A stretch of 64,000 nucleotides of DNA from Pseudomonadota bacterium (GTDB lineage Bacteria > Pseudomonadota > Gammaproteobacteria > QQUJ01). Below, one piece after another: positions 45,560 to 46,290 of this stretch; position 1 is the first letter of the stretch; each line of letters opens with the position of its first letter. The stretch lies in assembly GCA_008501635.1 (NCBI GenBank), contig QQUJ01000018.1, positions 399,286 through 463,285 on the forward strand, given 5' to 3'. The position numbers and the translations under genes were made by a program. Under the pieces are notes generated by a model. It searched no databases. It saw only the letters and a list, made by a program, of their open reading frames with translations, and was not told where the DNA came from.

Positions 45560-45650
45560 GGAGAGGTGTCCGAGTGGTTGAAGGAGCACGCCTGGAAAGT
45601 GTGTGTACGTTAATAGCGTACCGAGGGTTCGAATCCCTCCCTCTCCGCCA
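45560..45650 (+). tRNA. serX: tRNA-Ser (GGA)
   Basis: A complete class II tRNA. Acceptor stem GGAGAGG/CCTCTCC, D-arm TCCGAGTGGTTGAAGGA, anticodon loop CTGGAAA with anticodon GGA, a long variable arm (GTACG/CGTAC), T-arm GAGGGTTCGAATCCCTC, discriminator G and encoded CCA (45648-45650). The last 19 nt are repeated three more times downstream at 183-bp spacing. Confidence 0.95.
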
Positions 45651-46290
45651 TCAATAAAATACGGGGCCTCGTGCCCCGTTTTTTATTGATTGTCGATGGC
45701 TGGATTCGAAGCCTCGGTACTCAATCAGCCGGTTCGACAAGCCGCCGCAGGCGGCGAAGAACAGCGGAGCGAAGCGACGCTGGCCCCGAAGGGGCGAAGG
45801 GCGCAGCCCTGAGTAATCCCTCCCTCTCCGCCATCAATAAAATACGGGGCCTCGTGCCCCGTTTTTTATTGATTGTCGATGGCTGGATTCGAAGCCTCGG
45901 TACTCAATCAGCCGGTTCGACGAGCCGCCGCAGGCGGCGAAGAACAGCGGAGCGAAGCGACGCTGGCCCCGAAGGGGCGAAGGGTGCAGCCCTGAGTAAT
46001 CCCTCCCTCTCCGCCATCAATAAAATACGGGGCCTCGTGCCCCGTTTTTTATTGATTGTCGATGGCTGGATTCGAAGCCTCGGTACTCAATCAGCCGGTT
46101 CGACGAGCCGCCGCAGGCGGCGAAGAACAGCGGAGCGAAGCGACGCTGGCCCCGAAGGGGCGAAGGGTGCAGCCCTGAGTAATCCCTCCCTCTCCGCCAT
46201 CAATAAAATACGGGGCCTCGTGCCCCGTTTTTTATTGATTGTCGATGGCTGGATTCGAAGCCTCGGTACTCAATCAGCCGGTTCGACAAG
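45632..46290 (+). repeat. 3.6 tandem copies of a 183-bp unit containing the tRNA-Ser 3' end and a terminator
   Basis: Units begin at 45632, 45815 and 45998, with a partial fourth from 46181. Each starts with the terminal 19 nt of tRNA-Ser including CCA, followed by a bidirectional-looking terminator, a ~65-bp linker and hairpins (GCCGCC-GCA-GGCGGC, GCCCC-GAA-GGGGC). Copies are nearly identical (a/g differences such as GACAAG/GACGAG and GGGCGCAG/GGGTGCAG). The fourth diverges after 46290, and a degenerate tail (ATCCCTCGCTCTTCC) appears near 46344. The pattern resembles the E. coli tyrT locus (178-bp repeats with the last 19 bp of tRNA-Tyr, source of rtT RNA). All copies stay in one frame, giving an Arg-rich ORF (45671-46345). 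Confidence 0.95.
45656..45688. terminator. Terminator of tRNA-Ser, repeated four times
   Basis: ACGGGGC-CTCGT-GCCCCGT with AATAAAAT before it and TTTTTATT after it, so it could stop transcription from either side. Further copies lie 183, 366 and 549 bp downstream (about 45839, 46022 and 46205). Confidence 0.9.

Follow-up and report, generated by a model that had tools for sequence, protein, structure and literature searches.

RtT-like hairpin repeats with host-matched ends lie behind many proteobacterial tRNA genes and may evolve as recombining DNA

The tandem array behind the tRNA-Ser(GGA) gene of the window (the whole stretch of 64,000 nucleotides analysed here) and the rtT repeats of Escherichia coli belong to one widespread family of hairpin-rich units behind many proteobacterial tRNA genes. 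The units share one anatomy, their ends are specific to the host tRNA, their cores are more alike within a genome than between genomes, their tail copies are better preserved near the tRNA, and they are gained and lost as whole units. We consider it about an even bet (probability roughly 0.5) that the array is an RtT-like DNA hairpin element that sits at the T-loop-to-CCA tail of the tRNA and grows by recombination. The evidence suggests that RtT-like units evolve more as mobile or recombining DNA than as functional RNA.

Structure of the array behind tRNA-Ser(GGA)

The host gene, an intact tRNA-Ser(GGA) with an encoded CCA, was called by both ARAGORN and Rfam at 45560..45650 on the + strand. 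Its 19-nt tail, from the T-loop to the CCA (45632..45650, +), recurs in each intact unit. TRF reported a period of 183 bp with 3.6 copies and 99% matches over 45632-46294. The 19-mer AATCCCTCCCTCTCCGCCA starts at 45632, 45815, 45998 and 46181, and the 39-nt sequence TCAATAAAATACGGGGCCTCGTGCCCCGTTTTTTATTGA, the intrinsic terminator of the tRNA (45651..45689, +), starts again at 45834, 46017 and 46200, both at a spacing of exactly 183 bp. These coordinates and the TRF matches bear out the four tails and four terminators at 183-bp spacing described in the initial annotation; the eroded fourth unit, the inverted T-arm copies and the conserved core are features beyond it.

Each unit is made up of terminator, inverted T-arm, core and tail copy, all units being read on the + strand. 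Unit 1 (183 bp) spans 45651..45833, unit 2 (45834..46016) differs from it at two positions, and unit 3 (46017..46199) is exactly equal to unit 2, which leaves two variable positions in total among units 1-3, as delimited by TRF and the sequence. The distal unit 4 (46200..46363, from the sequence) equals unit 1 over about its first 88-91 nt, that is, in its 5' half, and then carries an eroded core and the eroded tail TGATCCCTCGCTCTTCCCCCA at 46343-46363. Between terminator and core, the variable arm/T-arm of the host tRNA is repeated in inverted orientation with one mismatch; this copy, GGATTCGAAGCCTCGGTAC, is found four times in the array (45702..45720 on the - strand, with copies at 45885, 46068 and 46251). 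The hairpin core, about 90 nt per unit, runs from GGTTCGAC to GAGTAATCC and comprises the 5' half of a T-arm, hairpins, and the 3' half of the T-arm; it occupies 45731..45819 in unit 1, 45914..46002 in unit 2 and 46097..46185 in unit 3 (all +). The first tail copy lies at 45815..45833 (+) and the others at 45998-46016 and 46181-46199.

The copy number is that assembled in a 30-contig draft genome. Plain chance repeats are ruled out by the 99% TRF matches and the family context, and as explanations of the anatomy, chance and a mere assembly artefact are both excluded: other tRNA genes of this genome, and complete E. coli genomes as well, have diverged copies built in the same way.

A 224-aa open reading frame (45671-46345, +) runs through the array; it stays open because a period of 183 bp, divisible by 3, preserves the frame. 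We rejected a coding role for it: the frame is not conserved, and the periods found elsewhere (such as 130, 154, 178, 181 and 184) are often not multiples of 3. The Pfam family YhiY (PF23514) matches this frame where it reads across the tRNA tail and the terminator (SNPSLSAINKIRGLVPRFLL), and, going by this match, may model a non-coding repeat. Further along the window, a short open reading frame at 46805-46999 (+) resembles a piece of an ABC-F ATPase, has no Pfam match, and is probably a pseudogene remnant.

Relationship to E. coli rtT

E. coli rtT is usually presented as the by-product RNA of one tRNA operon, and RtT relatives have been noted before at a few other tRNA genes. The rtT repeats of tyrT-tyrV are credited to Bosl and Kersten (1991, as cited in PMC4986893). 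We found that the tyrT-tyrV unit of E. coli MG1655 has the order tail, spacer, inverted T-arm (GGGGAAGGATgaGAAgCTTCGA), GGTTCGAC, hairpins including CCCGAAGGG, GAGTAATCC and tail, and that GGTTCGAC, a CCCGAAGGG-type hairpin and GAGTAATCC are common to the window and E. coli units. Against the Rfam RtT model (RF00391), the E. coli units scored 133-138 bits, a tRNA-Ser copy in another genome of the same class (G021) 58.4 bits, the copy behind tRNA-Tyr in the window genome 40.2 bits, and the window units 30.8-32.2 bits (E 0.012-0.025). The gathering score is 45 bits, which the G021 copy exceeds. Since the window units fall below it, we call them RtT-like and place them outside the Rfam family as curated. 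They do lie 3' of a same-strand tRNA and end in the tail of that tRNA, as RtT does.

Judged from the sequences, the likeness between the window array and E. coli rtT reflects homology within one family. The comparison with tyrT/rtT made in the initial annotation thus proved stronger than claimed, since layout and core are both shared; what had been read as a parallel in another tRNA and lineage is better described as membership of a single homologous family. PGAP annotates these elements as RtT sRNA. RtT is already in Rfam; in the open-access literature that we searched, we found no earlier general description of tRNA-tail repeats, nor of the generalisation to a family spanning many tRNAs.

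Distribution within the genome and across the class

A search of the genome that contains the window (30 contigs, 3.93 Mb) revealed diverged copies directly behind tRNA-Ser(UGA), tRNA-Tyr and tRNA-Gln; a wider pattern added copies at tRNA-Gln(CTG) and tRNA-Arg(ACG). The search of other tRNA genes for the unit, proposed in the initial annotation, was therefore positive for Ser(UGA), Tyr, Gln and Arg. These copies end in the host tail, exactly for Tyr and both Gln genes and imperfectly for Ser(UGA) and Arg. A core fragment ending in GAGTAATCC lies upstream of a tRNA-Gln without a matching tail (L008, G000:C10, 1481-1546) and is an orphan or relic.

Genomes of the same class, Gammaproteobacteria, were then scanned with the pattern GGTTCGAY-N52-82-GARTAATCC, which does not require a tRNA. 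The pattern matched in 58 of 369 genomes, a count that under-represents tRNA types without ATCC in the T-stem because the pattern demands it, and a reversed control pattern gave 4 matches in all. Most genuine matches lay 21-90 bp 3' of a same-strand tRNA. For further analysis we used 63 elements with a same-strand tRNA at most 130 bp upstream, after removal of obvious chance matches; they lay behind tRNAs for Gln, Ser, Arg, Tyr, Glu, Val and Asp, though the tail of the only Asp element matches poorly. Unit lengths in the family are about 130-190 bp, with no gene inside. Marinobacter similis and Alteromonas halophila are examples of cultured carriers.

A scan of named GTDB genomes served as a source of examples rather than of frequencies, as chance matches are abundant outside Proteobacteria. 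Among the matches listed, it added Pro (Escherichia albertii), Lys (Pectobacterium fontis) and Thr hosts and an alphaproteobacterial variant, and those without a tRNA or tail were scattered over unrelated phyla, as chance predicts. Three loci of uncultured Alphaproteobacteria (L127, L157 and L170) carry a distinct core, GGTTCGACTACCAGCGAAAGGCGGGCG...GAGTAATCC, behind tRNA-Ser and tRNA-Arg, with a 181-bp tandem in one of them.

Host-matched ends and shared cores

We compared the ends of the 63 elements with their host tRNAs. The tail copy equalled the local tRNA tail (14/14) in 52 of the 63, and the mean match was 12.9 to the own tRNA versus 7.5 to other isoacceptors. The inverted arm behaved similarly: its score was 13.5 with the own tRNA, fell to 9.2 with other isoacceptors and to 6.6 when spacers were shuffled, and none of 10,000 permutations did as well. 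At several loci the direct repeat is longer and comprises tail plus terminator. Together with the tail, the terminator and the inverted arm can also make up a single long palindrome (e.g. L062 and L109).

The cores followed the genome instead of the tRNA. Core similarity was 0.60 for the same genome and different amino acids, 0.51 for the same amino acid in different genomes, and 0.50 for neither, and 0 of 2000 label permutations reached the observed within-genome value. One genome (G014) has nearly identical cores behind tRNA-Gln and tRNA-Val, with ends that are Gln- and Val-specific, respectively. At three loci the core lies inside the T-loop of a tRNA copy, in the order GGTTCGA, core, ATCC (L037, G125:C17; L096, G346:C229; L103, G169:C28). 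An intact copy of the same tRNA directly follows the interrupted one at L037 and L096, and other tRNA-Glu genes exist elsewhere in the genome of L103. In another genome (G227), a second core is nested within the first. These results indicate that cores move or convert between tRNA genes.

Gain, loss and homogenisation of units

In two congeners (G326 and G110), the two terminator copies within each locus are identical over 33 nt, whereas the orthologues differ at 3 positions, which is concerted evolution. Among 23 arrays with at least two tail copies, the better copy was tRNA-proximal in 11, distal in 1 and tied in 11 (p=0.006), so that tail decay was distal in 11 of the 12 informative arrays. 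The E. coli strains examined had 0, 1, 6 or 9 tyrTV units (four in MG1655) and 0, 1 or 2 proK units. Recent amplification or homogenisation, which the near-identity of the window units had been taken to imply, is supported by the 0 in-locus terminator differences versus 3 between congener orthologues and by the varying copy number in E. coli. Only gain or loss of units or replacement of the locus was seen among these strains; none offered a clean empty site with a single first insertion as the sole difference. E. coli AGR5151 (L237) and JJ2434 (L238) have a tyrT locus without an RtT unit, in which a fatty acid desaturase gene follows tRNA-Tyr instead of narI.

Structure of the core as DNA or RNA

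We assessed whether the core has the signature of a DNA or an RNA fold. A core contained on average 3.2 helices and 18.7 Watson-Crick pairs (132 cores), whereas dinucleotide shuffling left 1.7 helices and 8.5 pairs, and an alignment of 21 cores showed double changes at 11 of 17 consensus pairs. This covariation implies either that the folded single strand matters or that the palindromes are actively corrected. In the core stems of the 132 elements, G-T and A-C mismatches (internal plus flanking) were both rare and stood at 40:33, whereas the terminators at these loci, being RNA hairpins, had 26:3 (Fisher p=0.001 versus cores), a comparison based on a simple helix finder, moderate counts and related, non-independent sequences. 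Of 232 triloops, 171 were GNA, and 156 of these were closed by C-G; the antisense equivalent occurred once. C(GNA)G is a hyperstable DNA mini-hairpin. Together, these data are suggestive of a DNA-level structure on the tRNA-sense strand.

The deviations of the inverted arm lean towards G-U-compatible changes (15/136 versus 9/236). This lean could mean RNA pairing, but we draw no conclusion from it, as the excess is small and C-to-T mutation on the transcribed strand could explain it.

Other observations speak against a DNA-level structure: RtT RNAs are produced in E. coli and Actinobacillus and have been detected in A. pleuropneumoniae (PMC4986893), and a tandem-GA motif has been reported in the RtT alignment (PMC7657543). 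The sRNA annotated as RttR in E. coli runs up to the CCA of the first tail copy. In the window and at many other loci, a strong terminator stands between the tRNA and the core. The RNA product envisaged in the initial annotation has been documented for E. coli; the G-U excess seen in RNA hairpins, however, is missing from the cores.

Search for a mobiliser

No recombinase, transposase or circular form was found for the element, and it had no match in the phage collection. Eleven plasmid records matched 29-34% of the query, and the one examined record with informative annotation represented a chromosomal purU-narI locus. A Salmonella plasmid record, CP101356.1 (L289), carries a chromosomal purU-narI segment with RtT repeats, which may be a chromosomal capture or a misassembly. 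Of 42 pattern matches in viral contigs, two looked genuine, one of them being the E. coli tyrT repeat. A phage or plasmid origin is therefore unsupported by the phage, plasmid and viral-contig searches.

We also considered membership in the RAYT/REP system. Y1_Tnp was present in 14 of 14 carriers and also in 31 of 40 genomes of matched size that gave no pattern match; because of this base rate in non-carriers, the co-occurrence is no evidence. At L294 (G000:C18), a gene for a RAYT-type Y1 transposase of 233 aa precedes tRNA-Arg(ACG) by about 0.5 kb; the 35-nt inverted repeats on either side of this gene (2941-2975 and 3751-3785) are unrelated to the RtT-like core. Membership was rejected on the high base rate and on these separate repeats.

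No integrase gene lies between the tRNA and the tail copy, and the 183-bp units are too short for one. The T stem-loop and the 3' end of tRNA genes are described as integrase target regions (Williams 2002, as reviewed in PMC8371274). These regions fit the repeat boundary, a fit that does not itself prove an integrase. Repeated integration, put forward in the initial annotation, agrees with the tRNA-proximal polarity and the T-loop insertions, but our searches turned up no vehicle for it, whether integrase, phage or plasmid.

Discussion

The reading that we favour, an RtT-like DNA hairpin element growing by recombination at the tRNA tail, can be stated as a sequence of steps. The core, a DNA hairpin folded as a single strand of tRNA sense, would enter the universal T-loop between TTCGA and ATCC. 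We infer such an insertion as the founding event, and single-stranded DNA as the active form. A unit closes with a copy of the host tail, and therefore the tail is regenerated; the tRNA itself is intact. New units would then arise by recombination of the tRNA tail with a tail copy, again keeping the tRNA intact, and older units would be pushed outward and decay. Repeated recombination, together with fold-back copying at the terminator palindrome, from which the inverted arm presumably originated, would keep the inverted T-arm and the tail matched to the host. The element may be non-autonomous, or it may be driven by general recombination and replication. A bolder version, which we hold only tentatively, regards RtT-like units as tiny non-autonomous mobile elements specific to the T-loop: the folded single-strand core would insert between TTCGA and ATCC, the tail copy and inverted T-arm would be re-templated from the new tRNA at each move, and a host or mobile recombinase would act in trans.

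The unit could instead be a conserved regulatory or tRNA-processing RNA, with the core as the RNA body and the inverted arm and tail copy paired into a tRNA-like acceptor/T helix. For E. coli rtT, a role of this kind in the stringent response has been proposed. The RttR annotation reaching the CCA of the first tail copy, the RNAs of A. pleuropneumoniae (PMC4986893), the tandem-GA motif (PMC7657543), the double changes at 11/17 stem pairs and the mild G-U bias of the inverted arm all agree with an RNA. We nevertheless find this explanation doubtful: a strong terminator separates the tRNA from the core in the window and at many loci, G-U and A-C are equally rare in the core stems, unlike in the adjacent terminators, unit number ranges from 0 to 9 across the E. 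coli strains examined, and most class members have no pattern match. A dedicated element may also be unnecessary if the region is simply prone to palindromes and evolves through slippage during replication, through template switching and through gene conversion from one tRNA gene to another, the core being spread passively by conversion via the T-loop sequence that these genes share. The near-perfect palindromes, including the long one joining terminator, inverted T-arm and tail, the concerted evolution and the copy-number changes exact to the unit would all be expected. This account is unlikely in view of a core with strand-specific GNA loops and GGTTCGAC/GAGTAATCC ends in distant families, the core nested at non-tRNA sequence and the precise T-loop insertions. 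Simple slippage at tRNA tails, another mechanism suggested earlier, is insufficient by itself because the conserved hairpin core is always present.

Another account takes the tail copies to be attR scars left by integrase-borne islands that entered tRNA-Ser one after another, and the spacer to be leftover attP DNA; it seems very improbable. The 19 nt from T-loop to CCA do correspond to two regions described as integrase targets (Williams 2002, as reviewed in PMC8371274), and new units are tRNA-proximal, but the same core is found behind many different tRNAs, each time with the tail of that tRNA, the unit contains no island or integrase gene, and we found no phage match, no convincing plasmid copy and next to no viral-contig matches. 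An assembly artefact might be suspected in a 30-contig draft; the ordered differences among units, the eroded last copy and the similar arrays in complete genomes make it hardly credible.

If a recombining DNA element is indeed the correct reading, E. coli rtT would be one example of proteobacterial DNA elements that colonise many tRNA identities with host-matched ends, and the cause of tRNA-tail repetition could be tested directly in E. coli K-12. Caution would also be due with PGAP RtT sRNA labels and with the Pfam YhiY match to the translated tail and terminator.

Among known systems, REP/BIME sequences with their RAYT are likewise short non-coding hairpin repeats that evolve as DNA in many copies per genome; unlike them, RtT-like units are tied, in a single orientation, to the tails of tRNA genes and have ends specific to the host, and no cognate RAYT was found. 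Integrative elements at tRNA sites use the same target region, leave the tRNA intact after insertion and have the newest copy next to the tRNA, whereas RtT-like units are about 130-190 bp long, carry no gene or integrase and occupy many tRNA species per genome. The closest counterpart is the RtT RNA/rtT of E. coli tyrT-tyrV (RF00391), which is tandem and of variable copy number in E. coli. Its period is 178 bp rather than the 183 bp of the window, its hosts are tRNA-Tyr genes rather than tRNA-Ser(GGA), and the window array, unlike E. coli rtT, has a terminator before the core in each unit and different core stems, while the layout of the units is shared by both.
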